Source of the DNA: Rhodoferax sp.
GTDB taxonomy: Bacteria > Pseudomonadota > Gammaproteobacteria > Burkholderiales > Burkholderiaceae_C
Direction: 5' to 3'
DNA: 64,000 nt
Assembly: GCF_023700745.1 (NCBI RefSeq)
Contig: NZ_JAMPYG010000011.1
Location: 1-64,000 of the forward strand
A model generated the notes under the pieces. It saw only the letters and a list, made by a program, of their open reading frames with translations, had not been told where the DNA came from and did not search any database. Of the stretch, positions 21,089 to 48,788 are shown in pieces. Within the stretch, counting starts at the first letter, position 1. The number at the start of each line of letters is the position of its first letter. The position numbers and the translations under genes were made by a program.

Positions 21089-24000
21089 TCAAGCTGCCTG
21101 TCGCACCTCTTCGGCATCAACCTTCGCGCTGCCCGCTTCATCCTTGTCCAGATCAAGCTGCTTGAGCAGCTCTCGCTGACGGGCGAGCAGATTCACCAGA
21201 CGGCCTTCGTGTTCAAAGGTCCGAGCCAGCTCCAGCCGGATGTCTTCCAGCCGCTTGCGCCGCACCTCCAATTGCACAACTGCATCGGTGTGGTGCTTGA
21301 CCACCGATTCCAGCGCCGCCATCAGTGCGGCCACGAGGGCGGGCCCTGTTTGGTACGGTTCGGCGTTGTACAGGCAATGGCCTGACAGGTACAGGTTGGG
21401 CACTTCCTCGCCGCGTGCCGCAAGGATGCCCAGGTCAAATCCGCCAAACCGGCCGACCACCCGTTCAATCATCCGGGTGCCGGTACGAACCTCTTCTTTC
21501 GCTGTTTTTACCAAGCCCCGCAGGACTTCCCCTACGGCATCCGGTCCGGTGACGGGGCGACCCGCCAGTTCGAGGCCAATACCCTGCATGGTTTGCGGCT
21601 CAACCCGCTCCACGTCCTGGGCATACAGCGCAATCTTTTTCTCCAGCGCTTCGATCATCATCGGCAACCGGCCCACTTCGCTTTCGTTGGCATAGCGCTG
21701 ATTGCGCCATACCGAGAAGAGCGTCGAGAGTTTGGCCACTTCCGCATCTACCCCAGCTTTTTCGATGACAAGTGGATTGCCGGACGCCAGGGCTTTCACC
21801 TCGGCATACGACAGCGTCGCCAGTTCCACGTCCTCCAGTGAGCGGATACCCTTGTCGCCCTTCATCACCTGGGCAATAAAGCGCGCCTTGGTCTCCAGCG
21901 TCTGCCACAGGTAGGCATCGAAGCTTTGTTCCGTCACGTACCTGAATATCTCCACCTCCTCACACTCGTTGCCCTGACGCAGGATGCGCCCCTCTCTTTG
22001 CTCGACGTCACAGGGACGCCAGGGCGCATCGAGGTGGTGCAGGGCGCACAGCCGGGTCTGCACGTTGGTGCCGACTCCCATCTTCGCCGTCGATCCGAGC
22101 AGCACCCGGACTCGTCCGTCGCGCACCGCCTTGAACAGCGTGGCCTTCTGGATGTCGGTGTCGGCATCGTGCACGAAGGCGATGTCCTTGTCAGGCAGAC
22201 CTGCTTCGATCAGCCTTTGCCGCAAATCGTCATAGACGCTGAACCCTTTGTCCCCCTTGGGCGATGACAGATCGCAAAACACCATCTGGGCACCGCGGAA
22301 GTCCGTACTCCTGCGCCAGATGTCCATCACCTCACCTACGCAGGCGGCCACCTTGCCCTTGGTATCAAACTTGGCCAGCGGTGCCACCAGCCGGAAATCT
22401 AGCGCAGCCTTGCGGCCGTCCGTGGTGATTGCCAGCATGTTGTCATCCTGCGGTTTCACGTGTCCGCTGCGGATGGCCTCCGCCCGCAGCACCAGCGTTT
22501 CCACAAAGGCCTTGAGTGCCTGGCTGGCCGGGCAGGCCACGATGCGTGCTTTGCCCCCGCGTAATGGCGGGACTGGCAAGTTCAGCATTTCCGCCGTGCG
22601 GATGTCGGCCACTTCACCAAACACCGCCATCAACTCGGGCACATTGATGAACCGTGCAAACCGCGTGTGCATGCGGTATCCACTGCCATCCGGTGCAATC
22701 TCCAGCGCCGTGACGCTCTCGCCGAACGTGGCGGCCCAGGCATCGAACTGCTGCAAGCCCAGTTCCTCCAGGCGATTGGGCTGCAGGTAGCGCATCATGG
22801 TATGGATCTCCGCCATGGTGTTGGCCACCGGTGTCGCCGTTGCGAACACCACTCCGCGCTGCACATGCCCATGGATTTGCATGGTGTAACGGGTCTTCAG
22901 GAACAGATCGAATGCCCGTTCCGAGCTGGTCAGGGGCAAACCCGCGACCCGCGTCATCTTGGTGAACCGGTACAGGTTCTTATGTAAATGCGCCTCGTCC
23001 ACGAACAGGCAGTCAATGCCCAGCAGTTCCCAGGTGAGGAGATCGTCCTTTTTCTGGTCCGCCAGCAATCGTTCCAGCCGGGCCTTCCAGTTCTTCTTCA
23101 TCGCTTCCAGTTGCTTGACGATCCGGTTGGACTTGTCATTGCTCTTTTCAGCGCGGACGGCCATCTCTAACTCATGAATGATCTCCTTGATAAACGCTTC
23201 AGTGAATTGCGGCGACATCTTGATGCGCTCAAAGCTTGAGTGCGTGATGACCACTGCGTCCCAATTGCCTGTGGCGATGCGCGACACCAGCTCGCGCCGA
23301 CGGTCGCCCTCCAGGTCTTCCTTGCTGGCCATCAAGACCGAGGCATTCGGGTAGAGCCGAACGAATTCTGCCGTGTATTGCTGCAACATGTGGTTCGGGA
23401 CCACATGGCAAGGCTTGGTGACGAAACCCAGCCGACGCAGCTCCATGCTGGCGATCACGCACACCGCCGTCTTGCCGGCGCCGACCACATGGAACAGTCC
23501 GGTGTTGCCGGACTGCACGATGCGCCAGACGGAATCCAACTGGTGCGGGTGCAGCACGAAGCATCGGGAGAACCCCGGCAGCTTCAGGTGGGAGCCATCG
23601 AACTGCCGTGGCCGGGTGGCGTTGAACAGGTCGTTGTAAATCCGGCACAGCTTTTCTCGCCGCACCGTGTCCTCAAAGGCCCAGCCCGCAAAGCGGTCTT
23701 TGATCAGGCCCAGTTTCTCGCGTGCGGCCAGCGTTTCATCAGAGTTGACGACATACCTGTCCGTCTCGGGGTCCGGGTCGCGTACCGTGGGCACCTGCAC
23801 GTTCAGTGCGCATTGCACCAGTTCGATGCCGTTCATGCGCGAGGTGCCAAACTCCTGCGTCACCTTCACATTCTGGCGCGCTTCCCACTCGCCATAGCGC
23901 ACTGACCAGGCTCCGGCCTCGGCCGAATAGCTGACCTGGCAGTCCTTGAGCTCCAGAACTTCCTGGACGAAAGCCTCGACGTCCATGGCGGGAATCCAGA

Positions 24001-26077
24001 CCGCGCCCAGGCGGGGTTCGATGGACGCTGGCGGCAGGTCTTCGGGTTGCACCTGTTCCAGCGCGTCGATATTGCGCCGGTAGGCGCTGCCCGACATCAC
24101 AGCCTGCTTGAGCTTGGCCTTCACGTTGCCCGACAGGTAGTCGTCGGCGGTTTTCCAATCGCTATCCGCTGGGTCAAGAAAGACCTGTCCGGCCTCGGCC
24201 AGCGCCTGCAGCACAGCATCTTCGGGCGCGGCCAGCAATCCGGCCATGTAGGCGGGATCAACCCGGCCACGCCATTGGATGGACGCCGCCAGCGCCTCGG
24301 TCGGTTCCCCCGCCGTGGTTGGCTCCACTACCCGTGTCAACGTACGCCGTGTGAACAGCGCCGCTTTCTTGGCGGTGTCCGACTCTTCGTCGTAGTGCTC
24401 CAGCGACAGCAGCAGCGGGTAGTCCGGGTCGCGCCGGAACGCCAGCGCATTGGCCCGGGTGCTCAGGCAACCGTATTTCGTGATGAAGCGGTCGTAAGTG
24501 CCGTTGAGCAAAGCCCGCAGATGACCCAGTCGCCCGTCCTTACTTTCGGACAACTGGGCATCCAGCAGCGAACGAGCGTAGTCCCGGATCGCGCACATGC
24601 CGGTGATCCGGCCTCGTTGTGTGGCGTTGAGCTGGTCATGCACATCGACCATTTCGCTGCCTTCGACCCGGTGCACCCGCCCCTGGTGCAGGCAGTAGCT
24701 GCCGGGACGGGCACCGGGTTCGGCGGGTACCACCACGCGCAAAGCAACCGGTTTTCTCAGCTGAGCTTGATAGACATCAGACGGGAGCAGGGCCACCCGT
24801 TCGGGTAACGTGGCTTCCAGATCACCGTCGAACACCGCGACCGGCACTTCGTCGTAGCAGTTGCTTTCCTGCCGGATTCGGCCGATGCAGAATTCCGGGT
24901 GCTTGGCATACCAGGCATTGATCTGCAGGTATTTCTGGTAACACTGCGGGTCGCGCAGTGCCTCGGGAACGAGGTTGAGGTCCAGCCAGGTGTCGTCGAC
25001 TGTCTCGGCCCGCTGTCGCTTGCGCAGGAACAGGATGTCGGTCTGCACTTCCGTGGACGCAATGCCTGCGAAGGCACCCCGTGGTAGCCGGATTGCACCC
25101 AGCAACTGGGCTTGCGAACCCAGGTAGCGGCGCACGCTGTCATCTTGTGCATCCAGCGTGTAACTGGTGGTGATCAGGCATACCAGTCCACCGGGCCGAA
25201 CCAGATCCAGTGCTCGGCCAAAGAAGTAGTTGTGGATGCTGAAGCGGGCGTAGGGCCGGTTGCTCACGTCGGCGACCTGGTATTTGCCGAATGGCACGTT
25301 GCCGATCACCAGGTCGAACCAGTTGTCGGCGAGTGGGGTCTTCTCGAAAGGAGAAATCCGGACGTCCACACTGCCCGGCGCATACAGCGCCTGCAGCATC
25401 TGTCCAGACAAATGGTCGATCTCGACTGCTGTGACGCTGCTTTGCTCGGCGATGGCCGTTGGCATCGCGCCGATGAAATGACCGATTCCGGCAGCGGGCT
25501 CCAGAATGCGCCCGCCACTGAATCCAAAGCGCTGCACGGCCTGCCAGATGGCCTCAATCACGTGGACTTCGGTGTAGTGGCTGTTGTTGACCGACGCACG
25601 GGCGGATTCGTACTCATCCGGGGTCAGCAGTGCATTCAACTGACGCGCACGTTTGGCCCAGGCCGCGTCTTCGGCTTCGAGGTTGAAGCTGGCGGGCAAG
25701 CCGCCCCAGCCGGTGTAGCGCAGCAAGGTGCTGCGTTCGTCCGGGGTAGCCGGGCGATCCTCGGTGTCAATTTGTCGTAGTGTCTTGATCGCTGCCAGGT
25801 TCGTCTCGAACTTGGTGACGCTGCCGCCCAGATTGTGCAAGTCGGCGCAGATCAACCGTGGCCACAGGTTGCGGGGTGCTGTTTCTGAGGCGCCGTTGAC
25901 TACACGCCAGTTGACACGCTGACGGGCGGGTTCGACCGACTCATCAGCAGAACTTTCCTCCATTGAAGAGGCCAGTTTAGAAACCGACGGTTCGGTCTCG
26001 GTGAAAAGAGCTGCAGGCTCGGACGGCTCCGGATTGAACCCGGGTAGCCATAGGGACGGCGCGGTATAGCGTGCCAT
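21089..26077 (-). CDS. DarB-like DNA methyltransferase-helicase
   Basis: 1662 residues from MARYTAPSLWLPGF at 26077. TGWGGLPASF (about 122-131), EPAAGIGHF (SAM-binding motif I, 193-201) and DLVIGNVPFGKY (motif IV, NPPF variant, 260-263) define an N6-adenine methyltransferase domain. The second half is a superfamily II helicase: GAGKT (about 864-868), VDEAHLH (about 1021-1027) and QREGRILRQGNE (motif VI, about 1358-1369). A long helical C-terminus follows. The arrangement matches phage P1 DarB and plasmid relatives, which protect incoming DNA from restriction. The size, single-gene operon, strong terminator and structured leader suggest tight control. Antirestriction is inference. Confidence 0.8.
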   Translation of the reverse strand: MARYTAPSLWLPGFNPEPSEPAALFTETEPSVSKLASSMEESSADESVEPARQRVNWRVVNGASETAPRNLWPRLICADLHNLGGSVTKFETNLAAIKTLRQIDTEDRPATPDERSTLLRYTGWGGLPASFNLEAEDAAWAKRARQLNALLTPDEYESARASVNNSHYTEVHVIEAIWQAVQRFGFSGGRILEPAAGIGHFIGAMPTAIAEQSSVTAVEIDHLSGQMLQALYAPGSVDVRISPFEKTPLADNWFDLVIGNVPFGKYQVADVSNRPYARFSIHNYFFGRALDLVRPGGLVCLITTSYTLDAQDDSVRRYLGSQAQLLGAIRLPRGAFAGIASTEVQTDILFLRKRQRAETVDDTWLDLNLVPEALRDPQCYQKYLQINAWYAKHPEFCIGRIRQESNCYDEVPVAVFDGDLEATLPERVALLPSDVYQAQLRKPVALRVVVPAEPGARPGSYCLHQGRVHRVEGSEMVDVHDQLNATQRGRITGMCAIRDYARSLLDAQLSESKDGRLGHLRALLNGTYDRFITKYGCLSTRANALAFRRDPDYPLLLSLEHYDEESDTAKKAALFTRRTLTRVVEPTTAGEPTEALAASIQWRGRVDPAYMAGLLAAPEDAVLQALAEAGQVFLDPADSDWKTADDYLSGNVKAKLKQAVMSGSAYRRNIDALEQVQPEDLPPASIEPRLGAVWIPAMDVEAFVQEVLELKDCQVSYSAEAGAWSVRYGEWEARQNVKVTQEFGTSRMNGIELVQCALNVQVPTVRDPDPETDRYVVNSDETLAAREKLGLIKDRFAGWAFEDTVRREKLCRIYNDLFNATRPRQFDGSHLKLPGFSRCFVLHPHQLDSVWRIVQSGNTGLFHVVGAGKTAVCVIASMELRRLGFVTKPCHVVPNHMLQQYTAEFVRLYPNASVLMASKEDLEGDRRRELVSRIATGNWDAVVITHSSFERIKMSPQFTEAFIKEIIHELEMAVRAEKSNDKSNRIVKQLEAMKKNWKARLERLLADQKKDDLLTWELLGIDCLFVDEAHLHKNLYRFTKMTRVAGLPLTSSERAFDLFLKTRYTMQIHGHVQRGVVFATATPVANTMAEIHTMMRYLQPNRLEELGLQQFDAWAATFGESVTALEIAPDGSGYRMHTRFARFINVPELMAVFGEVADIRTAEMLNLPVPPLRGGKARIVACPASQALKAFVETLVLRAEAIRSGHVKPQDDNMLAITTDGRKAALDFRLVAPLAKFDTKGKVAACVGEVMDIWRRSTDFRGAQMVFCDLSSPKGDKGFSVYDDLRQRLIEAGLPDKDIAFVHDADTDIQKATLFKAVRDGRVRVLLGSTAKMGVGTNVQTRLCALHHLDAPWRPCDVEQREGRILRQGNECEEVEIFRYVTEQSFDAYLWQTLETKARFIAQVMKGDKGIRSLEDVELATLSYAEVKALASGNPLVIEKAGVDAEVAKLSTLFSVWRNQRYANESEVGRLPMMIEALEKKIALYAQDVERVEPQTMQGIGLELAGRPVTGPDAVGEVLRGLVKTAKEEVRTGTRMIERVVGRFGGFDLGILAARGEEVPNLYLSGHCLYNAEPYQTGPALVAALMAALESVVKHHTDAVVQLEVRRKRLEDIRLELARTFEHEGRLVNLLARQRELLKQLDLDKDEAGSAKVDAEEVRQAA

Positions 26078-26141
26078 GGGTGTGTTCTCCAAAAAATAGG
26101 GGGAACACATCCACCCACTGGGAGACGTGCTCCCCGGTGGG
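26078..26141 (-). promoter_or_regulatory. Structured 5' leader of DarB-like gene
   Basis: In gene sense CCCAC/GTGGG (outer, 26141-26137 with 26118-26114), GGGAG/CTCCC (inner, 26134-26130 with 26124-26120) and TGTGTTC (26109-26103) pairing with GAACACA (26087-26081). The ribosome-binding site TTGGAG is enclosed. It is the fourth member of the family, with the most diverged but still paired stems. Confidence 0.6.
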
Positions 26142-26777: not shown

Positions 26778-26813
26778 TTGCGTATATTTGGATTTGTGGT
26801 AAGATAATCTTAC
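26778..26813 (+). promoter_or_regulatory. Promoter/operator of the thymine-nucleotide locus
   Basis: TTGCGT (26778-26783), a 16-base spacer and TAAGAT (26800-26805) form a possible promoter. The -10 falls in the palindrome GTAAGATAATCTTAC (26799-26813), a likely binding site for the XRE regulator encoded second in the operon. The first gene starts at 26842. Confidence 0.55.
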
Positions 26814-26841: not shown

Positions 26842-27156
26842 ATGGACGCGAACTTGGTACATCAAAAACTGGTTGAAGTGCTTCAATCAATCCAGTCATC
26901 CAGTGGGCTTGACTGCCCGTCAATTGTTGGCACGACAAAGCCGCTTGAGAGCCTTCCGAAGTTTGACAGCAAGATTTGGCCGGTAGCAATCGGTATGCTC
27001 GCGGCAGAACTGGGGATCACTATTGCCGATGATGTGAATATTTTTCGACGTGAAAAGAGTTGCATCGCGTTGACCATTGATGAAACTGTCGCTATGGTCA
27101 TCGCCCTGGCCCAAGCACAAACTCCTGCTGAAGCCAAACAGGCAAATGCGTCATGA
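26842..27156 (+). CDS. Acyl-carrier-protein-like protein
   Basis: 104 residues. The segment ESLPKFDSKIWPVAIGMLAAELGITIADDVNIF, then ALTIDETVAMVIALAQ, has the helix II and helix III pattern of acyl carrier proteins. The Asp-Ser pair (D42-S43) is where phosphopantetheine is attached; the following residue is Lys instead of the usual Leu or Met. The start of the protein (LVHQKLVEVLQSI) fits helix I. An AcpS-type transferase is encoded later in the same operon, which supports the call. It overlaps the XRE gene by four bases. Probably carries an acyl or aminoacyl group during synthesis of a modified nucleotide; this is inference. Confidence 0.6.
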   Translation: MDANLVHQKLVEVLQSIQSSSGLDCPSIVGTTKPLESLPKFDSKIWPVAIGMLAAELGITIADDVNIFRREKSCIALTIDETVAMVIALAQAQTPAEAKQANAS

Positions 27157-27521
27157 CTGAATCACAAGATTCCAAGCGTGCTGTGATTGCGACACGCCTG
27201 CGTGAAGCAAGAAAAATGGCAGGCGTATCGCAAGGCCAGGTCGCAAAGCTGTTGGGGATGCATCGACCGACCATCTCGGAGATCGAAGCAGGCAATCGGA
27301 GGGTATCGGCCGAGGAGCTTTCCAAGTTCGCCGAAATGTATGACGTTACTGTCTCCTGGTTGCTTGCAGAGACTGCTGACCAACTCGAAGTGGATGATCC
27401 GCGTCTGCAACTGGCGGCCAGAGAGCTTAGCAAACTCAAGCCCGACGATCTAGACCGACTCCTTCGGCTATTGGCATCCATGCGCGGTTCGGACTCAGAT
27501 GATGGAGGTTCTGCCACATGA
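27153..27521 (+). CDS. XRE-family repressor
   Basis: 122 residues with a standard helix-turn-helix at about 12-66 (IATRLREARKMAGVSQGQVAKLLGMHRPTISEIEAGNRRVSAEELSKFAEMYDVTVSWLL). The C-terminal part is helical and ends in a Ser/Asp tail. It overlaps both neighbours by four bases (ATGA). XRE plus ImmA/IrrE pairs act as repressor and anti-repressor protease in ICEBs1 and phages, so this protein probably represses the promoter at 26778 until cleaved. Confidence 0.85.
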   Translation: MTESQDSKRAVIATRLREARKMAGVSQGQVAKLLGMHRPTISEIEAGNRRVSAEELSKFAEMYDVTVSWLLAETADQLEVDDPRLQLAARELSKLKPDDLDRLLRLLASMRGSDSDDGGSAT

Positions 27522-28411
27522 GCGCTTCACATCAATCCTCACCCATGGCCGAGGCTCGAAAGCCGCTTGTCATGAAAGGAATGCAGGCTGCTATAGCAGC
27601 ACGAACTAAAGCTGGCATTGATCTCAAGAGTCCGACCTGTATTTACGGTTTGTGCGAAAAGCACAGCGTCACCGTGCGCTTCAATGACATCAATATGGAA
27701 GGCATGTACGACCGTACGTCTAAGCCACGTATCCATGTGTCGGCTTTGCGGCCGCTCGCAAGGCGTGCATTCACTTGCGCCCATGAATTGGGCCACCACG
27801 TGCTTGGGCATGGTTCCACAATTGATGAGTTGCAAGAAGAGCAGTCAAAAAGCGTGGAGCGACCAGCGAATGAGGTCCTCGCTGATGCTTTCGCTGCGTT
27901 TGTACTCATGCCAACTCTGGGGCTACGCGAGGCATTCTCCAAACGTGGCCTGGATCCAAATAAGGCTTCTGCCGTTGACATGTACGCCATAGCGTGCAAT
28001 TTCGGCGTGGGACAGTCGACATTGGTAAATCATCTTGCTTACGGAATCGAGATGATCAGCTCGGCTCAGCGAAACCAATTGGGGAGAGTTACGCCGAAAA
28101 TGATTCGAACGCAATTGTTGGGCGAAGTGGTGTCTGAACCGTTAACGGTAGCTGATCAGCACTGGAACTCAGCTACGCTAGATGCGGAGGAGGGGGCTCT
28201 TCTGCTACTACCCACAAAGGTGGTTGCCGATACTACGATGCTGATGCCTGAAAGGGATCTGGCGGTTGGAAGACTCTTCAGAGCAATACAGCCCGGAATT
28301 ACGCGCGTCGTAATTCCGGGCACGCCGTGGGCCACATACGTACGGGTCGCTCGTCGGCAGTACGTGGGGTTAGCCCGATTTCGCCACTTGGAGGATATGA
28401 CCGATGACTAA
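27518..28411 (+). CDS. ImmA/IrrE-family metalloprotease
   Basis: 297 residues. CAHELGHHVLGHG (HELGH at 89-93) is the zincin active site, and NEVLADAFAAFVLMP contains the third ligand region typical of the family. The C-terminal 150 residues include a possible sensor domain. ImmA cleaves its cognate XRE repressor when a signal is sensed. It lies directly after the XRE gene (ATGA overlap) and before the nucleotide enzymes, so it would switch on its own operon. The signal is unknown; a nucleotide or DNA modification state would fit the neighbours. Confidence 0.85.
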   Translation: MSASHQSSPMAEARKPLVMKGMQAAIAARTKAGIDLKSPTCIYGLCEKHSVTVRFNDINMEGMYDRTSKPRIHVSALRPLARRAFTCAHELGHHVLGHGSTIDELQEEQSKSVERPANEVLADAFAAFVLMPTLGLREAFSKRGLDPNKASAVDMYAIACNFGVGQSTLVNHLAYGIEMISSAQRNQLGRVTPKMIRTQLLGEVVSEPLTVADQHWNSATLDAEEGALLLLPTKVVADTTMLMPERDLAVGRLFRAIQPGITRVVIPGTPWATYVRVARRQYVGLARFRHLEDMTDD

Positions 28412-29258
28412 AAGACAAGCCCCTATAACGGGTCCGCTGCTTATTGACGAATCAGACTTGTCGAGAGCCTGGGCAAAGGCCGTGCTGCACGTTGTAGATC
28501 ACGCAGGTACCGAAATATCACCACTTATTCTCAGCCTGACTGGCTTTGACGATGCTGGTAATCCAGCTGAATCACAATCTGTGCGCATAGCATTGGATGC
28601 ATTGTTGCTCGCAAAAGGATTGCGAAATGTTGAAGATGTAGCATTCACCATATTCCCGCAGCGCCTTTGGACGGTTGCGCAAGGTGATCGGGCCCGTCTG
28701 TTCAAGTATTACCGTGAAGCCTTTCCTAGATACCAGGCAATGAACCCGAAAGACAACCGCCGTGGTTTGTACTTTGAACGACTGACCCAGTACAAGCGAG
28801 GGCCCTGCGACGGCAATCAACTCGAATGGATACTCTCACAGTTCAACGACCGTGAAGGCGTGCGACGATCCATGTTTCAGGCAAGCGTGTTTGACCCAGA
28901 GCGAGATCACGTTGCTGATGCCCAACTGCAGTTTCCCTGTCTGCAGCATGTCACATTTGAACCAACAAAGGGAGGATTGGTGATCAATGCGTTCTATGCT
29001 ACGCAACAACTTTTTGTGAAGGCTTATGGGAACTATCTCGGGATTGCACAGCTTGGCGCCTTCATGGCGCACGAAATGCACATGAAATTGACCCGGATGA
29101 ACGTGATTATTGGGGTTGCAAAGATTGATCAACGTATCTCCAAAACCGATCCAGCGTTAGGGCCGTTGCTCACTGTTGCTCGCGAGTGTGTATTCCAAAA
29201 AACACTAGAAGCCGCAGTGGCAGCAGCGGAAGTTCCAGTTGTTGAGAGGGTAAATTGA
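28404..29258 (+). CDS. Divergent thymidylate-synthase-fold protein
   Basis: 284 residues. The second half follows the thymidylate synthase pattern: GVRRSMFQASVFDP (dUMP phosphate Arg region, R154-R155), QFPCLQHVTF (nucleophile Cys, C179, in place of PCH), INAFYATQQLFVKAYGNYLGIAQLGAFMAHEM (the lYQRSaD-FLG-PFN helix with N210). The usual His after the Cys is Leu and the dUMP-contacting QRS-D is ATQQL. It retains the Cys, so it may act on a pyrimidine nucleotide with a different cofactor or donor. It overlaps the protease gene by eight bases. Assignment is by pattern and should be tested by structure prediction. Confidence 0.6.
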   Translation: MTKRQAPITGPLLIDESDLSRAWAKAVLHVVDHAGTEISPLILSLTGFDDAGNPAESQSVRIALDALLLAKGLRNVEDVAFTIFPQRLWTVAQGDRARLFKYYREAFPRYQAMNPKDNRRGLYFERLTQYKRGPCDGNQLEWILSQFNDREGVRRSMFQASVFDPERDHVADAQLQFPCLQHVTFEPTKGGLVINAFYATQQLFVKAYGNYLGIAQLGAFMAHEMHMKLTRMNVIIGVAKIDQRISKTDPALGPLLTVARECVFQKTLEAAVAAAEVPVVERVN

Positions 29259-30409
29259 AGCACGTAGCAAGTGAGCGCACGGTCATCTGCAAGGCGCCAG
29301 ATTCACCTGCTATAGCCCAAGTGCAATCCGCACCGCCGTCACATATGTCCCCGCTCAAGTTGAGCGTGGTGTACGACAGCTACTGGCGATTTGCGGTCGA
29401 GCGGCAGAACGTCTACTTTCGCCGACTAGCCCATGAACCAGAGCCGTGGACCAATGACCCCATTATCTCCGTGCACAAATTTACCAATGCGTACCGGGCA
29501 TCCGACAGGGTCAGTCAATACCTAATACGCAACGTTATTTATAGGGATGACTTGCCAAGTTCTGAGTCGGAAGTGCTCTTCCGGACTATGCTCTTCAAGC
29601 TCTTTAATAAAATTGAAACGTGGGAACTTCTAGAACACACCTTCGGAGAAATCACGTTTAAAAACTACAAGTTTGAACACTACGATAGAGTTCTGAGTCA
29701 GGCAATGAAGGCAGGTGGACGCATCTACTCGGCTGCGTACATCATGCCGCCAGGAGGGTCGGCATTTGGGCATTCCGCGAAGCATCAGAACCACCTGTGT
29801 CTACTTGAAAAGATGATGGCCGATGATCTCGCGGGTCAGCTACACAAGATGCGCAGGATGCAACCGGCATTTGAACTGCTAAGAAGCTATCCAACGATCG
29901 GGGACTTTCTTGCCTACCAGTTCGTCACTGACATTAACTACACTGAGATCACGGACTTCACCGAAATGGATTTCGTTGTGCCGGGCCCGGGCGCGCGCGA
30001 TGGGCTTAAAAAGTGTTTTGTAGATGGCGCTGGCCTCAATGACGCTGAACTCATACGCCTCATGGTCGACAATCAAGAGCGAGAGTTTGAGCGGTTGGGA
30101 ATTCAATTTCAGTCACTGTGGGGGCGCAGACTTCAATTGATCGATTGTCAGAATCTATTTTGCGAAGTTGATAAGTACGCGCGTGTTGCTCACCCCGAGG
30201 TATCAGGCATTTCTGGACGAACACGCATCAAACAGAAGTTTTCACCAACGGGTTATCCAGTAAGTCCATGGTATCCGCCGAAATGGGGCATCAACGACAA
30301 GATACAGGCGCAGCTTAAGCTTGCCGATCCGATTCGTAATGATCGGAAACCCGGCAGCCAAGCAATGAGCGGGCGTCAAGCAATGCTTAAGTTGGAAAGC
30401 GGATCATGA
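29255..30409 (+). CDS. HMUDK-helical/aGPT-Pplase-type thymine hypermodification protein
   Basis: 384 residues from a TTG at 29255 behind GAGAGG. It has the full helical pattern I associate with the 5-hydroxymethyl-dU DNA kinase helical (formerly aGPT-Pplase2) family: YWRFAVERQNVYFRRL, PWTNDPIISVHKFTNAYRASDRVSQYLIRNVIY, MLFKLFNKIETWELL, IYSAAYIMPPG, KHQNHL, FLAYQFVTDINYTE, FVVPGPGARDGLKKCF and LIDCQNLFCEVDKYARVAHP. Phage relatives take part in hypermodification of thymine in DNA. No P-loop is present in this chain. It sits between two nucleotide/carrier genes, so a role in making a modified thymine is likely, though its substrate is unknown. Confidence 0.7.
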   Translation: MKHVASERTVICKAPDSPAIAQVQSAPPSHMSPLKLSVVYDSYWRFAVERQNVYFRRLAHEPEPWTNDPIISVHKFTNAYRASDRVSQYLIRNVIYRDDLPSSESEVLFRTMLFKLFNKIETWELLEHTFGEITFKNYKFEHYDRVLSQAMKAGGRIYSAAYIMPPGGSAFGHSAKHQNHLCLLEKMMADDLAGQLHKMRRMQPAFELLRSYPTIGDFLAYQFVTDINYTEITDFTEMDFVVPGPGARDGLKKCFVDGAGLNDAELIRLMVDNQEREFERLGIQFQSLWGRRLQLIDCQNLFCEVDKYARVAHPEVSGISGRTRIKQKFSPTGYPVSPWYPPKWGINDKIQAQLKLADPIRNDRKPGSQAMSGRQAMLKLESGS

Positions 30410-30939
30410 AATTCAATAGCAAAAAGCTTGATGACCGTGAGCGCATCGGTCGCATGACCTCTACTGGGATTTCCCTCGTACCGCGACGTCATATCAAGCA
30501 CAAGTTGAGGGGGCGATCGCAAACTGACAACACTCAAAAGTCCATGTCTCGACATGGCAATTTGATCGGTCATGGCCTGGATGTTGTCGACGTCGCGGAG
30601 TTTTCCCGTTTGCTACGCCTGCCTGCTTGCGCATTCTTAGACCGCTATTTCACGGAGTCCGAACTATTTGCGGCGGGGGAAGGTGTGACCCGAACAGAAA
30701 GACTAGCTGGGCGATTCGCGATCAAGGAAGCGGTGCTTAAGGCGTTGTGTATTGGGTGGGGAGACGGCGTCTCCTTTACCGACGTCGAAGTCATCACTCA
30801 TACTACGGGTGCGCCCTCTGTCGTATTGCATCGCAAGTTAGAGGATCTGCAGAGAGAACGCCACATTGCCGGTTGGCTTGTGAGCTCAAGTCACACAGAC
30901 GTTGTCGCAGTTGGCAGTGCTATTGCGTTTGGCATGTGA
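30406..30939 (+). CDS. AcpS-type 4'-phosphopantetheinyl transferase
   Basis: 177 residues; the conserved domain starts near 50 (IGHGLDVVDVAEFSRLL with the Mg ligand D59, then FLDRYFTESELFAAG, RFAIKEAVLKAL with E108 and K112, and SSSHTDVVAVGSAIAF). AcpS transfers phosphopantetheine from CoA to the Ser of a carrier protein. I kept the start that overlaps the previous stop (ATGA at 30406), though the ATG at 30544 would give the usual AcpS length. It should activate the ACP-like protein at 26842. A dedicated AcpS is surplus to the host's own, which argues for a self-contained pathway. Confidence 0.75.
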   Translation: MKFNSKKLDDRERIGRMTSTGISLVPRRHIKHKLRGRSQTDNTQKSMSRHGNLIGHGLDVVDVAEFSRLLRLPACAFLDRYFTESELFAAGEGVTRTERLAGRFAIKEAVLKALCIGWGDGVSFTDVEVITHTTGAPSVVLHRKLEDLQRERHIAGWLVSSSHTDVVAVGSAIAFGM

Positions 30940-30996
30940 ACGGCCGTTGCTGAGACAGAAAAATTCCTCGCGTATCAATTTGAGCATCGGATTTGC

Positions 30997-31599
30997 ATGA
31001 AAAACGACGGAGCGCTGTATGTGTTTGAAGGGCCTGATTCGGTCGGAAAGACTACATTGGCCAGACTCCTTACGGAGCAGTTAGTAGCACGCGGTGTTGA
31101 CTGCGTTCACTTGGCTTTCCCAGGAAATGAAATCGGTACTGTGGGAAATTTAATTTATAGGCTCCATCACGAGCCTCAGCAATTTGGAATTGACAGCTTG
31201 TCTGCCACGGCACTTCAAATGCTGCATGTTGCCGCCCACGTGGATGCCATTCAAACCAGAATTCTTCCAGCCTTAGCACTTGGGAAGACCGTCATTTTGG
31301 ATCGATTTTGGTGGTCGACAGATGTTTATGGCCAACTATGCGGTCTAAATAATACGTTGGTGGAATCGATTATTGCGCCGGAAAAGCATATTTGGGGTGA
31401 GACTGTTCCCACTGTAGTTTTCTTACTTGAGCGAAACGCACCATTCGAGTTTCCGGTGTCGGATTACTGGCGCAGATGTACAAGTCTGTATTCACACCTA
31501 GCGGATGCGCAATTGGAAAAGCATCGCATTGTTCGAGTGAGCAATGAAGGTGAAATTAGTACGCCACTGTCCATCATCATGCAAGCGGCCATTGCGTGA
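30997..31599 (+). CDS. Thymidylate-kinase-like P-loop protein
   Basis: 200 residues. GPDSVGKTTLARLL is the P-loop (12-19), preceded by YVFEG as in dTMP kinases. ILDRFWWSTDVYG holds the DRxxxS/T-like motif (D102, R103) of the family, and the C-terminal helix-rich half fits. The usual TMK LID Arg pattern is not evident, so the substrate could be a modified dTMP rather than dTMP. It is the last gene of the + operon, 58 bases after the AcpS gene, and converges on the thymidylate synthase gene of the opposite strand. Confidence 0.7.
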   Translation: MKNDGALYVFEGPDSVGKTTLARLLTEQLVARGVDCVHLAFPGNEIGTVGNLIYRLHHEPQQFGIDSLSATALQMLHVAAHVDAIQTRILPALALGKTVILDRFWWSTDVYGQLCGLNNTLVESIIAPEKHIWGETVPTVVFLLERNAPFEFPVSDYWRRCTSLYSHLADAQLEKHRIVRVSNEGEISTPLSIIMQAAIA

Positions 31600-31624
31600 T
31601 TCGGTTGAGGAAGTAGAAGTTTTC

Positions 31625-32629
31625 CTAGCGCTCGGAGCATCGGACTAACCACGCACGCCAAGCCTCCTGAAGTGTAGGATTGAAGCATTTATTGGCGATG
31701 ATGTGCATTTCATCAGCCCAGGATCGTCGACGAGCGGTATCGGCCGCGACCACATGCATGTAATTGGTCCAGCCCGTGCAGAGTCCAAGCGAATCAACGA
31801 TGTTTATCAAACGAACTGGCGTTAAAAGGTCTGATCTCATTTCATTCATTGCATGCTCCAAAAGAGGAAGAGTTCTATTGAATTCTTCTCTTGATAGTGC
31901 GAGCGAGTCGGTGCTAGTACCGATAGAGGGGACTTCCGACATGGCGCAGCGATCTGCATCATGGTCATACAGGTGCAGGCTGTCGGACACTAGTAAAAAT
32001 GAGCCGATTCCGACACCTAGCCAACCAGCGATGACTTCCTGCAATGAAGTGAATTGCACAAAGTTGTGGGGAGTGCCAAGAAAAATGTCATTGCTCCGCA
32101 TGACTTGTAACCACTCGAGTTTTTGTGACCGGATTTTAAGCAGACCCATTAAGTTGCATGGAATATCAGGGTCGCGGCTGGTGCCGTCGGGTAGTGGTAA
32201 ATCAACTTTACTATCCCAAATCTGAAGTACCGCTTGCCGGGACTCCGGGTTTGCCAACAGGACCTGGTAGACGCGCTCGATTTGATCCAAGCCGAAATGT
32301 GTGCGCAATCGAGCGCCGTACGCACCATGATAGGTCTCACCGGATCCGGCGTATTTTGGCAGTGCGGGATTCCAGAAGTTTAAAAAACTTGAATCATTTT
32401 TCCCAAGCAAGATCCAAATCACTTCAGCGATTGCAAAGGCTGGGTTGATCGCGGGGCGACGCGACAGTACCCATCGTTGTCGTGGATCCTTGATGCACAG
32501 ACCACAATGCAATAGCTCACGCATAGGTCCTAGTCGGCTTTCCTCCAGACTCGACTGGTCTGATTGAATCTTAACTAGTGCTTTGCGCCATACGTCATCA
32601 GCCGTTATACCTTCAAAATAATGAAACAT
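31625..32629 (-). CDS. Thymidylate-synthase-family protein
   Basis: 334 residues with the catalytic order of ThyA: GSGETYHGAYGARLRTHFGLDQIERVYQVLLANPESRQAVLQIWD, DIPCNLMGLL (Cys 158), MRSNDIFLGTPHNFVQF (QRSxDxFLGxPFN equivalent with N189) and SDSLHLYDHD (H-Y motif). The residue after the Cys is Asn where ThyA has His. Retention of N189 argues for a uracil rather than cytosine base, since dCMP hydroxymethylases carry Asp there. It may make dTMP or 5-hydroxymethyl-dUMP. It lies 11 bases after the metallophosphoesterase gene. Host thyA is at 47837, so this is a separate paralogue. Confidence 0.75.
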   Translation of the reverse strand: MFHYFEGITADDVWRKALVKIQSDQSSLEESRLGPMRELLHCGLCIKDPRQRWVLSRRPAINPAFAIAEVIWILLGKNDSSFLNFWNPALPKYAGSGETYHGAYGARLRTHFGLDQIERVYQVLLANPESRQAVLQIWDSKVDLPLPDGTSRDPDIPCNLMGLLKIRSQKLEWLQVMRSNDIFLGTPHNFVQFTSLQEVIAGWLGVGIGSFLLVSDSLHLYDHDADRCAMSEVPSIGTSTDSLALSREEFNRTLPLLEHAMNEMRSDLLTPVRLINIVDSLGLCTGWTNYMHVVAADTARRRSWADEMHIIANKCFNPTLQEAWRAWLVRCSER

Positions 32630-32640
32630 TCTTGAGGTCC

Positions 32641-34794
32641 TCAGGCAAGACTTGGTGAAGTCGAATCGGACTGTTCACTTGTCGGCAATGTAGCCTGCAA
32701 TTTCTTCAGCCATTGCGCATTGCGTGTTTTCCATTTTTTGAATTTCGCATTGGTCTGTGGGGCGCTGAAATCCTCATTATTCTGGCGAATTTCTTTGAGG
32801 GCCTCAACTATCTGTATGGGGCCATGAGCAGCAGTCAACCACTGCTCAAGCAACTGCAAACCTTCAATTGCAACAGGGTTCCCATCTTGATGAAATCCAT
32901 TGGTCGCGTGTTCTAGATCAATTAGGCAGCGCTTCCAATACTTGACACCATCATCAGTTGAGGCCGCTGATGTATCGGCAAGGTAAAGCGCTATTTGCGC
33001 GATACGAACTGGATGACTGTCGACCCATTGATCAATGAGAGGTACTGCAACCTTTGTTGGCTGTCGAATGTCGTCGCTTAACCGTGGATATGGAGTGATG
33101 GTTGTAATTTTTCCAGGTTTCAGTTGTGTTTCAGCTAGGACTTCTTCCTGAAGGTAACGAAGCTCGGCAACGTTGACCGGCCACCAGTGATTGAATTCCT
33201 GCGCACGGTAGTACCCGATGCAATCCAATTCCAAATTTGGCCGCAGACAGAATTGGACTAAACAGAACGAAGCAAAGGAAATTTTTGGCCCAAAATCCCG
33301 CCCCGGATCCACCACAAGCGCGATTGTTTTGCTGGTCGGTTCCTTGCTCTTAAGGAGTGTGATGATTCGCTCTATTTGATCAATATTTCCGCCGAACCGC
33401 TTAAGGCGGCTTCCATGAATATAGGGGATCCTGCCGTCCATTCGAGATGTCGGCTGCTGCCACCACTTGACTGTTTCTGTAAACCATTCATCCCTTTCGT
33501 TGTCATCACCACTGTAGGGGTAGGCAAAAGGAAACGAGCAAGTGCCAGGGGACTCAAATTCAACGGTGCAGGCAATGGATCTTGTTGGATACTTTGCAAT
33601 CGATTGAATTGACCGCGCATAGACCTTATCCACAGAATCACCATAGATGCTGATTGGCCCCATTGACGCGGGATCATTTTCCCAAAGTTGAATGGGCTTA
33701 AGTTCGCTGGACTTTATTTTTTGCCCAGCTTTGCCTATTTCGTAATTACGGATATGGCAGGTCGGTGCATTGGGGATGTTCTTAACTGAAATTAGACGCA
33801 CGGGCGTGTCCGGCTCTGTACTCGTAGGGCCGAAAGATCCACCAGATATTGTCAGTAGCCGATGTGGACTTTCGATGCCCCCGTCTCGAGAAGTTGGGTA
33901 TATGTGATCGAAATGTGCTGTCGCGTGATGTTTGTGACCATGGACCACAATATGGAATCCATGCTCCAAGAGAACCTGCCTCAATGCGCCAAGGTTTGTG
34001 ATGTCTGCACCTGCCTTAAATTCTTCTCGGTCACTTACCGGCAAAAGGTGGTGATGTAGGACCGCTATTCGAAGTGGGATGTCTTGGGTAGCGGTTGCGA
34101 GTAGCTTAATCGCCGACAACTGGTTGTTCGATATTCGCGCCATGTCGTAAGACGTCAGTTGCTCCAACGCTTCCATCAGTGGTTTTGGATCCGTTTGTGT
34201 GGCCAGAAAGTCTTGTAAGGTTTTGACGTCCTTGTTTTCCGTGGCGCTCAGGCGTATTTGGGACCAATTGGAGCTGTTGATGGGGAATACCGCCCATTTC
34301 CTATCTGTCCCAACTAAGACATGCTTATCGAAATCGAGCTTACCTATATCGTGTATTCCGTCCAAGAACGGAACGATTGAAGCCTCACCTGGTGTCATCC
34401 ATGCGGACTGGAATAGGCGGTATCGTTCAGCCGTGTTCGGTTTGGTTCCAGAAACAATATCGTGATTGCCTGGGGTAGCGACAATTTTTCCAGCATCTAT
34501 ACCTGATTTTTCGAAATGCTTTAGTAGCATGTTTCGAAGGGTCAGTTGCCCATCTGGACTACCTTGAATCGTTCCATCTCCAGAAAAGACTATCGCATCT
34601 AACTTGGTCCCACTTGCTTCCAAAGCATCGGCGACCGCTGCAAGTGTTTTTTCTAGCACCTCCTGGCGCAGTGGTTGTTCTACGTCAGCTCCATGCAATT
34701 TGATATCTTTTTCTTTGTAGTCCGTTTTGTTTGACAGGTGACAGTCTGTAACGTGCAGAAAGTTTAGATTTTCGACTGAGTGCCGGTTGTCCAT
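32641..34794 (-). CDS. Large metallophosphoesterase
   Basis: 717 residues counting from MDNRHSVENLNFLHVTDCHLSN (34794), with AAAGGA about 11 nt upstream; TTG and ATG starts to 34869 are possible. The metal motifs are LHVTDCH (D17, H19), FSGDGT, PGNHD and VHGHKHH, in the expected order. The remaining two thirds (about 360-717) have no domain I know and are rich in aromatic and charged residues. It could hydrolyse nucleotides or nucleic-acid phosphates. It is transcribed together with the TS-family gene and convergent to the ACP/kinase operon. It may be the effector or a clean-up enzyme of the locus. Confidence 0.75.
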   Translation of the reverse strand: MDNRHSVENLNFLHVTDCHLSNKTDYKEKDIKLHGADVEQPLRQEVLEKTLAAVADALEASGTKLDAIVFSGDGTIQGSPDGQLTLRNMLLKHFEKSGIDAGKIVATPGNHDIVSGTKPNTAERYRLFQSAWMTPGEASIVPFLDGIHDIGKLDFDKHVLVGTDRKWAVFPINSSNWSQIRLSATENKDVKTLQDFLATQTDPKPLMEALEQLTSYDMARISNNQLSAIKLLATATQDIPLRIAVLHHHLLPVSDREEFKAGADITNLGALRQVLLEHGFHIVVHGHKHHATAHFDHIYPTSRDGGIESPHRLLTISGGSFGPTSTEPDTPVRLISVKNIPNAPTCHIRNYEIGKAGQKIKSSELKPIQLWENDPASMGPISIYGDSVDKVYARSIQSIAKYPTRSIACTVEFESPGTCSFPFAYPYSGDDNERDEWFTETVKWWQQPTSRMDGRIPYIHGSRLKRFGGNIDQIERIITLLKSKEPTSKTIALVVDPGRDFGPKISFASFCLVQFCLRPNLELDCIGYYRAQEFNHWWPVNVAELRYLQEEVLAETQLKPGKITTITPYPRLSDDIRQPTKVAVPLIDQWVDSHPVRIAQIALYLADTSAASTDDGVKYWKRCLIDLEHATNGFHQDGNPVAIEGLQLLEQWLTAAHGPIQIVEALKEIRQNNEDFSAPQTNAKFKKWKTRNAQWLKKLQATLPTSEQSDSTSPSLA

Positions 34795-35058
34795 GAGCAA
34801 GATCATCCTTTGGTTGATTGCGTGGCGTTGGGCAAGCCTCCCCTTCACGCTGGTGCATGTGTTATCCAATTTGGTTGAAGTATGGCCGAAAATGGAGGGC
34901 GCGGTGGTCCTGTTTCATAGATGATTTTCAGTGAGGCGCACTGGTCAGCTACTTCAGGCAAAAAATGCGCGATACACATGGTGCGAATGGTGTGTTTTGC
35001 GGTGGTCTATTGTGATTCCTCAAGCGGGGTGTAAGGGGATCGGTGGGGTGACCGTGAT

Positions 35059-35532
35059 TCAACTCAAGTGCAAATTGACCAGTCGGAGCAGGGGCTGCGG
35101 CAGGGTCTCGCTTGGCTCCGCAACGAGCTGTTCGGTCGGTCCTTTGTTCCAGCACAGTTCGCCTTTCGTATCATCGAACCACAGCAACGCCTCTTTGAAT
35201 GTGCGTTGCTGGCGCGGAAACGTGACCATTTCCACGAACTGCAGCGTGGTGACCGTCGCTGCCTAGATCCACAGCCATTGGTAAACCGTGGCTTTGGTCG
35301 AGAGCGCGGATTGGTCGAGCCGTTTTATTTCCGCAAGATACCCTTGTAGTGCGGAAAACAGGAACAGGACTTCGTACAGCGGCGGCATGGGCAGGGCGGC
35401 GGTGGTGCGGAGCAATGCGGAATTCAGGCTGAATTTTGTGACGCGATTTCCCGCGCAACATGCAGCGATGCTATCGCACTGAAGGGCTTGAAGAACGCGC
35501 AGCGCATGAGATTCTGAAGGCATGGACAGCAC
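35059..35532 (-). pseudogene. Unidentified gene with in-frame stop
   Basis: On the minus strand a frame opens at 35532 and includes MPPLYEVLFLFSALQGYLAEIKRLDQ. It is interrupted by TAG at 35263-35265 and continues in the same frame to TGA at 35059-35061 with good coding look (LQFVEMVTFPRQQRTFKEALLWFDDTKGELCWNKGPTEQLVAEPSETLP). I do not recognise the protein. A single stop suggests a recent pseudogene, or translation of two pieces. It lies between the metallophosphoesterase and ParB-like genes. Confidence 0.35.
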
Positions 35533-35567
35533 GTCGCTGGTCCCTTTTTAACCCTTCAGGAGTCTCC

Positions 35568-37628
35568 ATGAAATTCTCGAAAGCCGAAATCGAAGCCGTC
35601 ATCGAAGCATCGCCCCGCACCACCATCCCCTTCAACAAGCTGATCCTGTCGGAAACTTACCAGGCCCGCTCGGCTGGCAGCACGTCGAAGATGAGCATTG
35701 CCGAACTGGCGGCATCCATCAAGGAAAGTAATGTCCTGCAAAACCTGATCGTGGTGAAGGGCGCACGCGGTCTGTTCGAGGTTTGTGCAGGTGGTCGCCG
35801 CCTTGAGGCGCTAACCCTGCTGGTTGCCAATAGTGACATTCCAGACAACTATCCCGTGCCTGTGCTGATGGTGCCTGCCGACAAGGCACTGATCGCCAGC
35901 TTGGCGGAGAACTGCTTCCATATCCCGCTCCATCCCGCCGAGGAATACACCGCCTTTGCCAAGTTGACGGCCCAGGGTAAGTCGGTCGAAGACGTTGCCG
36001 CCGCCTTCGGTGTCACACCTCTGGTGGTCAAACGCCGCATGAAGCTGGCCACGGTCTCTCCCCAATTGATGGCTCAGTTCCGGGCCGACAAGATCGGTCT
36101 GGACTGCCTGATGGTGCTGGCTTCGGTGGACGACCACCACAAGCAGGAACAGACCTGGTCTGGTGTGCCGACCTGGAATCGCCGTCCCGACTACCTGCGC
36201 CAATTGCTTACACAGGGCGAGATTGAGTCTGACAGCGACCCCGTCGCCCGGTACGTGACTGTCAAGGCTTACGAGAAAGCCGGTGGCACCCTGCGCCGCG
36301 ACCTGTTCAGCGACGACGACAAGAAAGCCTACCTGCTGGATGCAGCACTGCTGGAGAAGCTGGCCACCGACAAACTGCAGAAAAAGGCGAAGCAGGTCGC
36401 CGCTGATGGCTGGAAATGGGTCGATGTCCGTGTCCGCTACAACTACGACGAGTTTGTCAAGTACGGCGCACTACGAAAAACCCGGCGCGAGCCCTCCGGA
36501 CAGGAAGCCGCCAGCCTCTTGGAATTTGAAACCCGACTGGCTGCGTTGAACGACCAGATGGAGGCACTGGCCGAAGCAGAATCGGATGAAAGCGATGAAA
36601 ATGGCGAATACGACAAGCTCGAAACCGAGTCCGAGAGCTTGCAGGCCCAGATCAAGGCACTGGAAGACACCTTCAACGTCTGGCCTGCTGACCTGATGGT
36701 CCAGGCTGGATGCGTGGTCTTCGTTGGCAACGATGGCACAGTGGCCCTCAAGTGCGGTTTGGTTCGTCCCGAAGACCGCAGCGACATGGCGCAGGCGGCG
36801 CGGCTGGCAGGCGAGGGCGCTGATGATGAATCGCTGGTGTCACTGCCTTCACCCAAGACCCGCCCAGTCCATTCCGACAAGCTGATGCGCCGTCTCACCG
36901 CCCACCGGGTGGCCGCAGTCCAGGCCGAACTGATTGACCGCCCCGACGTGGCGTTGGCCGCGATCACTGCCCATTTGGCCGTGAAACTGCTGGTCGACGG
37001 TTTCCGCCGCCACTACGGCAGCGACGATGTTTTGACGATGAGCGCCACCAACACCCATGCAAGTCTGCCGTCCGAAGCTGATGACATGAAGACCAGCGCA
37101 GCATGGCAGAAGATGGACACCGAGCGCGCAGCCTGGGCGGCTCGACTGCCGGAATCGGTAGATGCAATCTTTCCGTGGGTGCTGGCGCAGGAGCCCATCA
37201 CTGTGCAGCAATTGCTGACCTTCCTCATTGCTTCGACCGTCACCGGTGTCTACGGTGTGGAGCGAAGCAAGCAGAGCACCGATGCGCTGGCTGTTGCATT
37301 GGGACTGGACATGAGCAAGTGGTGGTCGGCCACCGGCCCATCGTATTTCAACCACGTGTCCAAGGGCCGCATTTTGGAGGTCGTGACCGAAGCCGTCGAT
37401 GCCAATGCCGCCAGTCCGCTGGACACACTCAAGAAGGATGCAGCCGTGACAGGCGCCGAACAGACCGTGGCGGGTACGGGCTGGTTGCCCACCGTGCTAC
37501 GGGTCGGGATGTCTGAGAAGGTCAACCCGTCTGGAGATAGCGACGAACCGCCTGTGGCAATTGGCGAAGAGCATGTGGAACCGGACGGCGCAACACAGTG
37601 GGCGCAGGAGCCCGCGTTGGCCGGGTAA
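35568..37628 (+). CDS. ParB-like partition/nuclease-domain protein
   Basis: 686 residues from MKFSKAEIEAVIEASPRTTIPFNKLILSETYQARSA at 35568, with CAGGAG six bases upstream. The N-terminal ParB/Spo0J domain shows MSIAELAASIKESNVLQNLIVVKG and CAGGRRLEALTLL, and an HTH-like segment (SVEDVAAAFGVTPLVVKRRMKLATVSPQLM). The C-terminal 400 residues contain a predicted coiled coil (about 310-360) and no known motif. Similar proteins occur in ICEs and PRTRC-type cassettes and are thought to act in element maintenance. No parA is adjacent; the ParM-like gene at 42788 may be its functional partner. Confidence 0.75.
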   Translation: MKFSKAEIEAVIEASPRTTIPFNKLILSETYQARSAGSTSKMSIAELAASIKESNVLQNLIVVKGARGLFEVCAGGRRLEALTLLVANSDIPDNYPVPVLMVPADKALIASLAENCFHIPLHPAEEYTAFAKLTAQGKSVEDVAAAFGVTPLVVKRRMKLATVSPQLMAQFRADKIGLDCLMVLASVDDHHKQEQTWSGVPTWNRRPDYLRQLLTQGEIESDSDPVARYVTVKAYEKAGGTLRRDLFSDDDKKAYLLDAALLEKLATDKLQKKAKQVAADGWKWVDVRVRYNYDEFVKYGALRKTRREPSGQEAASLLEFETRLAALNDQMEALAEAESDESDENGEYDKLETESESLQAQIKALEDTFNVWPADLMVQAGCVVFVGNDGTVALKCGLVRPEDRSDMAQAARLAGEGADDESLVSLPSPKTRPVHSDKLMRRLTAHRVAAVQAELIDRPDVALAAITAHLAVKLLVDGFRRHYGSDDVLTMSATNTHASLPSEADDMKTSAAWQKMDTERAAWAARLPESVDAIFPWVLAQEPITVQQLLTFLIASTVTGVYGVERSKQSTDALAVALGLDMSKWWSATGPSYFNHVSKGRILEVVTEAVDANAASPLDTLKKDAAVTGAEQTVAGTGWLPTVLRVGMSEKVNPSGDSDEPPVAIGEEHVEPDGATQWAQEPALAG

Positions 37629-48670: not shown

Positions 48671-48715
48671 GACAAGAATAAGAAAACACTTTTTAAAGTT
48701 AACGTGAAAGAACAG

Positions 48716-48788
48716 CGTCATTGCGAACGCAGTGAAGCAATCCATGACTTCCGACGGCATGGACTGCCGCGTTGCGCTCGCAGTGACG
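48716..48788. repeat. Palindromic interspersed repeat (REP-like)
   Basis: The arms begin CGTCATTGCGAACGCA and end TGCGCTCGCAGTGACG and are imperfect complements over about 28 bases (GCAATCCA against TGGACTGC at the inner ends). Elements of this GTCATTGCGAxxGAAGCAATCCA type are scattered between genes in many proteobacteria. It lies upstream of thyA. The rest of 48789-49182 holds no gene that I can support. Confidence 0.65.

Follow-up and report, generated by a model that had tools for sequence, protein, structure and literature searches.

A conserved bacterial gene module joining a divergent acyl carrier protein to thymidylate-synthase-fold and HMUDK_hel proteins, a candidate inducible anti-phage system

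We analyzed a stretch of 64,000 nucleotides from Rhodoferax sp. (contig NZ_JAMPYG010000011.1, hereafter the window) and find a gene module in which a divergent acyl carrier protein (ACP) is linked to a repressor, a metalloprotease, thymidylate synthase (TS)-fold proteins and a protein of the HMUDK_hel family. We suggest tentatively, at somewhat less than an even chance, that this mobile module uses a group provided by its own ACP to make a deoxyuridine nucleotide or DNA base substituted at position 5, and that it acts as an inducible anti-phage defence. A sequence-only reading of the window had named the genes and had found no described system to match them; it proposed a pathway that would make or sense an acyl- or aminoacyl-modified thymine, and this interpretation is supported in part. 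All the named genes are real: they are present at the positions listed below, with profile matches for each family. Together they form a conserved module for which we found no description in full-text literature searches. On the + strand an operon-like run (26842-31599) has the order ACP-XRE-ImmA-TS_D-HMUDK_hel-AcpS-TMK. Neighbours among the first six genes share 4-8 nt, and a gap of 57 nt precedes the gene of the thymidylate-kinase-like protein (TMK). TS_H and a metallophosphoesterase constitute a convergent unit facing the ACP operon. The features are:

26799..26813, no strand: likely operator, palindrome GTAAGATAATCTTAC, 28 bp ahead of the ACP start codon
26842..27156, + strand: A, ACP-like protein with predicted phosphopantetheine site Ser43 (family profile to solved ACPs, predicted fold)
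27153..27521, + strand: B, XRE/Cro-type repressor with helix-turn-helix (HTH) (PF01381 5.7e-16; PADLOC capH 8.7e-17)
27518..28411, + strand: C, ImmA/IrrE (M78) metalloprotease (PF06114 2.1e-16; PADLOC capP 2.8e-15)
28404..29258, + strand: D, divergent TS-fold protein TS_D (TIGR03283 9.7e-10, under the model's cut-off)
29255..30409, + strand: E, HMUDK_hel protein (PF18723 4e-113)
30406..30939, + strand: F, AcpS, holo-ACP synthase (PF01648 2.3e-14; a shorter start is possible near 30544)
30997..31599, + strand: G, TMK-like P-loop kinase (PF02223 1.8e-14)
31625..32629, - strand: H, TS-family protein TS_H, candidate deoxyuridine monophosphate (dUMP) 5-hydroxymethylase (PF00303 5.8e-20)
32641..34869, alternative start 34794, - strand: I, metallophosphoesterase with C-terminal TS-fold domain (PF00149 3.1e-9; PF00303 2.8e-5)

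TS_D served as the search anchor. A relative was encoded by 82 of 180 stretches, and 80 loci were kept (L015-L094). Genes were counted within 7 kb in all 80 loci, including five near-duplicates recognized by eye. These five were left out of the residue, motif and spacing counts, the phage-protein search, the MazG/phosphoesterase exclusion, the distance matrices and the palindrome count; L001 was additionally left out of the residue, motif, spacing, distance-matrix and palindrome analyses. According to the record titles the loci belong to alpha- and betaproteobacteria, cyanobacteria, Planctomycetota, Acidobacteria, Chloroflexi, Verrucomicrobia and others, many being metagenome-assembled genomes (MAGs). 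HMUDK_hel is present in 78 of the 80 loci, the HTH gene in 76 (one stray HTH in L086 included), ACP and ImmA in 75 each, AcpS and a MazG-type gene in 64 each, deoxycytidine triphosphate (dCTP) deaminase in 21 and the phosphoesterase-TS gene in 10. MazG-type here means Pfam MazG plus MazG_C in the two members checked. Among the 77 loci with room upstream, 75 have the ACP. Three of the five misses are at contig ends, and L086 and L088 are without ACP-HTH-ImmA in about 3.5 kb upstream. The two loci without HMUDK_hel either stop at the contig end (L084) or have 1.2 kb left (L094).

The sequence-only reading had proposed to look for the same gene order in other mobile elements. This order recurs in the 80 loci, and plasmids carry forms of the module too; ACP and AcpS are again linked with TS-fold and HMUDK_hel genes. 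All nine genes are found in the window's order in an Azonexus MAG (L024) and in rearranged order in a Dechloromonas MAG (L027). Two genomes of the window's class (L125, L126) share the core, and a single strand of L126 carries ACP-HTH-ImmA-TS_D-HMUDK_hel-MazG-TS_H-dCTP deaminase. Plasmid forms are known from Rhizobium, Sinorhizobium, Allocoleopsis, Nostoc and Streptomyces, some of the carrier plasmids being typed conjugative. The distance matrices correlate in all 21 gene pairs (r 0.64-0.93), values not reached in 500 permutations. MazG-type and phosphoesterase genes exclude each other (56/7/2/3 of 68 loci, Fisher p 4e-6, with related loci treated as independent). Since the same order recurs across 80 loci, the grouping is not due to chance; chance neighbours are ruled out by the gene counts, the distance-matrix correlation and the shared palindrome described below. 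A phage-encoded module is unlikely, as 2.9 million viral contigs hold only 3 loci compared with the 80 kept in genome contigs. A side observation is an ACP-HTH pair without ImmA or TS_D in L127 (5911-6578), a genome without a PF18723 match; it looks like a remnant.

That the genes might occur independently of each other had also been considered in the earlier reading. The core genes do travel together, but HMUDK_hel is also seen without an ACP nearby and is thus not exclusive to the module. Such cases are found in phages, in the plasmid loci L008, L009, L011, L012 and L004 (with just 1.1 kb upstream in view in L004) and in L118 and L119. The module is rare: HMUDK_hel occurs in 4 of the 369 genomes from the window's class and in 3 of the 198 relatives, both counts including the window's own genome. 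L118 (genome G123) and L119 (genome G133) hold simpler sets, MazG-HMUDK_hel and dCTP deaminase-HMUDK_hel; neither an ACP nor the switch is present within 18 kb. In the Gloeothece plasmid L004, HMUDK_hel and a MazG-type gene are flanked by a phospholipase of a cyclic-oligonucleotide-based antiphage signalling system (CBASS) and a TIR protein. A different context is seen in a Parabacteroides plasmid (L012, 6953-7963), where HMUDK_hel adjoins TIR and radical-SAM genes.

Judged by gene spacing, ACP, HTH, ImmA and TS_D are the tightest unit of the module. The pairs ACP-HTH, HTH-ImmA and ImmA-TS_D overlap or are at most 10 nt apart in 69 of 70, 68 of 70 and 72 of 72 measured cases. The palindrome GTAAGANNNTCTTAC, with 0-2 mismatches, occurs in 74 of 77 ACP loci (the misses are L010, L022 and L083), the pattern having been derived from the window and four relatives that belong to this same tested set. 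These 77 loci, made up of 71 from genomes, 5 from plasmids and the window itself, are not identical with the 77 that have room upstream. The palindrome lies 285-540 nt ahead of the end of the ACP reading frame, that is around or before the ACP start, and the remaining 1.21 Mb of the ACP loci contain 7 background matches. In the window the copy at 26799-26813 is the sole match, with 0.02 expected. The palindrome is likely the operator of the XRE protein. Members of the ImmA family have the HExxH motif in 75 of 81 cases, and capH and capP are the best PADLOC matches of B and C. In CapH/CapP, cleavage of the repressor by CapP is stimulated by DNA. By analogy, an induced repressor-cleavage switch is likely here as well. 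In the viral contig L095, where the search showed no ACP, a perfect palindrome (6313) stands 322 bp before the HTH gene, an interval that may hold a diverged ACP.

As a single sequence, protein A has no match in Pfam (E<=1), NCBIfam, PADLOC or PHROG, the PP-binding family included. The family profile does match solved ACPs, the best being a meromycolate ACP (E=0.001) with the serines aligned. An AlphaFold2 model has four helices (local confidence score pLDDT 89, predicted TM score 0.80), and an ACP in complex with AcpS ranks first among its Foldseek matches (prob 0.99, E 0.088). Among the best 50 of 122 Foldseek rows all but ranks 20 and 50 are ACPs or complexes that hold, or in part presumably hold, an ACP. 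Of 72 aligned homologues, 71 have the serine that opens helix 2 (Ser43) and one (L094) has Thr; the motif [FLV][DN]S is present in 120 of 120 among the homologues listed (258 in all). Two homologues on plasmids carry the record name 'acyl carrier protein'. Searched against 398 genomes, the profile matched 3 genomes, the window's own included, with one match each, and ordinary ACPs were absent among the candidates scored. Judged by these comparisons A is a divergent ACP family, as would suit a dedicated AcpS. The serine together with the linked AcpS predicts phosphopantetheinylation at Ser43. As to AcpS itself, regular expressions find GxD in 61 of 64 and the KEA pattern in 39 of 64 proteins. 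The suspicion that the ACP-like and TS-like calls could be wrong was not borne out: both survive the profile tests, and the ACP call survives the fold prediction too.

Both TS-fold proteins of the operons have MilA as best solved-structure match, TS_H at 2.4e-27 and the TS_D family profile at 3.6e-4. In TS_D the catalytic Cys179 is present in all 85 rows with a letter at this position (86 rows). TS_H is 34% identical to gp17 of Pseudomonas phage YuA over 185 aa (2e-29) and is a candidate dUMP 5-hydroxymethylase. Our analysis adds two points to the earlier reading. Towards its C-terminus, gene I (742 aa) has another TS-fold domain, the third of the module (residues ~461-590; Pfam 2.8e-5, slightly short of the cut-off; TIGR03283 1.4e-12), in which Ser replaces the catalytic Cys in 10 of 10 proteins and YR[AV]QEF and WWP[VI]N are retained. 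Gene I further matches the NCBIfam model DS9_1 'anti-phage phosphoesterase' far below its threshold (92 bits versus a cut-off of 420, 3e-26). Of the phosphoesterase motifs searched by regular expression, GD[GLV] is found in only 4 of 10 proteins, and the [DN]xH pattern is a short one.

In phage YuA, a relative of M6, the PF18723 protein gp14 adjoins the P-loop kinase gp13, and the nearby gp17 belongs to the TS family and is annotated as a putative deoxyuridylate hydroxymethyltransferase. HMUDK_hel of the window is 24% identical to gp14. In VIA-align rows its AlphaFold2 model (pLDDT 87.6) is paired with DNA glycosylases and with an enzyme of queuine salvage. The fold is possibly HhH-GPD-like; by endonuclease III numbering, E237 would be a catalytic residue. 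TMK-HMUDK_hel fusion proteins are encoded in 8 of the 80 loci, and one locus encodes a HMUDK_hel-MazG-MazG_C fusion of 705 aa (L065, 9807-11924). In phages (PMC6449724, PMC7653180), the route proceeds from 5-hydroxymethyldeoxyuridine in DNA via a kinase to further modification.

The module is found in the company of defence genes. The flanks match 69 PADLOC families at E<=1e-15 versus 6 in the control, 149 proteins each; families and not proteins are counted, a single protein may match more than one model, and the control is made up of 18 stretches of only two other genomes. For the flank sample, proteins of 62 loci were picked randomly up to a size limit; the pool was 560 intact flanking proteins, with those of the five duplicates removed. 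LmuA, LmuC, pAgo, GajA, GajB, KwaB, AbiEi, AbiEii, ThsB and SoFic are among the 25 flank families listed, and conjugation coupling proteins (3) and integrases (2) are also present. An anti-phage role of the module is likely on these sequence grounds. In the DefensePredictor work (PMC13092281), as far as its main text and legends go, the validated defence domains include TS and 5-hydroxymethyluracil kinase. The legend of Fig. 3C there names TS, dNMPk and 5hmdUk, from which we infer that the three form one system; aGPT-Pplase, MazG, MazG-C and dUTPase appear in systems that are predicted only. An E. coli counterpart of the validated genes was looked for, and the core DNA of L125 and L126 was unmatched in 5,426 E. 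coli genomes at blastn sensitivity.

We suggest that the module could operate in the following steps. The XRE repressor would sit on the palindrome until ImmA, triggered by infection or DNA damage, cleaves it as in CapH/CapP. AcpS would place phosphopantetheine on Ser43 of the ACP, which then would be loaded with an acyl or aminoacyl group. dUMP could be supplied by the MazG-type and dCTP deaminase genes in many relatives, and in the window would be hydroxymethylated by H. The TMK-like protein G together with E would phosphorylate 5-hydroxymethyldeoxyuridine, with E gripping the base in DNA. The group carried by the ACP could then be joined or exchanged at C5 by TS_D through Cys179. Stray modified nucleotides might be trimmed or removed either by MazG or by the phosphoesterase, whose TS domain is dead, and the product would poison or block phage replication. 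In its boldest form, which we regard as quite unlikely, the proposal amounts to the first carrier-protein-dependent nucleobase modification: Cys179 of TS_D would activate C5 of deoxyuridine, and a group bound to the ACP as thioester would replace methylene-tetrahydrofolate. The product would be a thymine analogue with an acyl or aminoacyl group, acting as an induced antiviral nucleotide.

We favour the ACP-dependent modification because of the gene order and co-inheritance, the tight spacing, the palindrome, the evidence on the ACP, the YuA parallel, the fusion proteins, the single strand of L126, the defence flanks and the legends and main text of PMC13092281. The gene set and order, the overlaps, the palindrome, the ACP serine, the spread over phyla and the enrichment of defence genes are observed; the ACP fold is predicted. 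Several results weigh against it, the narrow control and the counting of families in the flank comparison among them. At the position of the phosphate-binding Arg after the Cys, TS_D has Thr (81), Ser (3) or Asn (1) in 85 proteins, and without this Arg free dUMP may not be its substrate. TS_H is found in only 4 and TMK in 10 of the 80 loci, and TS_D-HMUDK_hel spacing is looser than in the core (16 of 64 within 10 nt, median gap 71 nt). The ACP model has no Foldseek match at E 0.001 among its 122 rows, and neither has the HMUDK_hel model, whose best E is 0.94. The YuA kinase belongs to PF18748 whereas G belongs to PF02223 and has no similarity to gp13; single-sequence phmmer searches of the loci found no gp13 homologue. 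Nor did phmmer find a homologue of YuA gp10, the amino acid:DNA transferase (ADDT, PF18724), in 6276 open reading frames of 98 sequences; PF18724 is also absent among the Pfam matches of the nine window proteins. A single-sequence search of the same reading frames found no homologue of the Nmad5, pyridoxal-phosphate (PLP) and radical-SAM phage proteins. Finally, among the operon proteins we recognize no acyl ligase or transferase and no enzyme loading or using the ACP. The ACP could be a regulatory component instead of a donor.

This last possibility leads to a defence by nucleotide depletion or chain poisoning, which we consider doubtful. Once released by the switch, dCTP deaminase, MazG and TS-type enzymes would deplete or corrupt the thymidine triphosphate supply, and the ACP would only be regulatory, as a subunit of TS_D or of the ImmA switch that senses the holo/apo state or coenzyme A. 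The tight unit of ACP, HTH, ImmA and TS_D, the lack of a recognized loading enzyme and the counts of MazG-type (64 of 80) and dCTP deaminase genes (21 of 80) speak for it, dCTP deaminases being defence enzymes that deplete deoxynucleotides. It leaves unexplained, however, why HMUDK_hel is present in 78 of 80 loci and why TMK-HMUDK_hel fusions exist. Unlikely in our view is a surveillance of hypermodified phage nucleotides or DNA, in which TS-fold proteins bind modified dUMP, phosphoesterase I destroys it and E recognizes or excises the base. Gene I with its retained motifs and its Ser for Cys in all 10 proteins would suit such a role, as would its DS9_1 match under the cut-off and the pairing of the E model with DNA glycosylases and the queuine salvage enzyme. 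This fold match is, however, not significant, gene I is confined to 10 of 80 loci, the ACP finds no explanation and the phage homologue of E sits inside a modification cassette. We consider self-modification still less probable, in which the mobile element would place a hypermodified thymine in its own DNA and so evade host restriction as phages do. The conjugative plasmids and the integrase genes near the module in the window would agree with this, and the phage cassette serves restriction escape (PMC6449724). But the viral contigs yielded just 3 loci, and an inducible repressor-protease switch among defence neighbours fits defence better.

The surroundings of the module in the window are those of a mobile element, with an Eco57I-type protein (21089-26110), a ParM-like protein, two integrases and, near the module, a ParB-like protein (35460-37628, match just under the cut-off). 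The GC content of the module (0.48-0.54) is below that of the flanks (about 0.58-0.62). A DUF6088 and AbiEii pair (38750-40349), an AbiE-like toxin-antitoxin, is situated about 4 kb away. A tyrosine integrase (45005-46261) adjoins a folA-like gene (called by eye) and the chromosomal thyA (46468-49030), which is likely the edge of the mobile element. D, H, I and F are not housekeeping genes: a separate host ThyA is encoded at 47840-48649, and a second AcpS is found on another contig (C15). A promoter and terminator scan gave fewer sites than in shuffled sequence. No PADLOC or NCBIfam system spans the whole gene set of the window proteins; G and I have weaker matches to the PADLOC candidate families PDC-M51B (3.5e-9) and PDC-S60 (5.3e-6), respectively.

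If the ACP-dependent modification proves true, the carrier chemistry of fatty acids and polyketides would alter a DNA building block under attack, which joins two fields, and a new enzyme class for labelling DNA would be at hand. Chemistry aside, the four-gene core, the 15-bp palindrome and the spread over many phyla make a concrete and well-defined module.

How does the module compare with known systems? With CapH/CapP of CBASS it shares the adjacent XRE repressor and M78 protease and the upstream palindrome, but no CBASS cyclase is among the nine window genes, and here ACP and TS_D overlap the switch on either side. MilA is a cytidine monophosphate 5-hydroxymethylase, and its Asp is Asn in TS_H, while TS_D is without the phosphate-binding Arg. 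The Asp/Asn position presumably recognizes the base, and TS_H would accordingly be expected to act on uracil instead of cytosine. Compared with the YuA cassette the module has ACP, AcpS, XRE, ImmA and TS_D in addition. We found no description of a carrier protein tied to defence, to TS or to such a switch in full-text literature searches. The systems of DefensePredictor have the same enzyme types in an anti-phage context, as far as the main text of PMC13092281 tells; there 'acyl carrier' has 0 occurrences and the ACP is thus unmentioned, figures and tables aside. With the carrier protein as an unmatched addition, the module is probably of a known kind, namely thymine-hypermodification enzymes which bacteria use, probably for defence.

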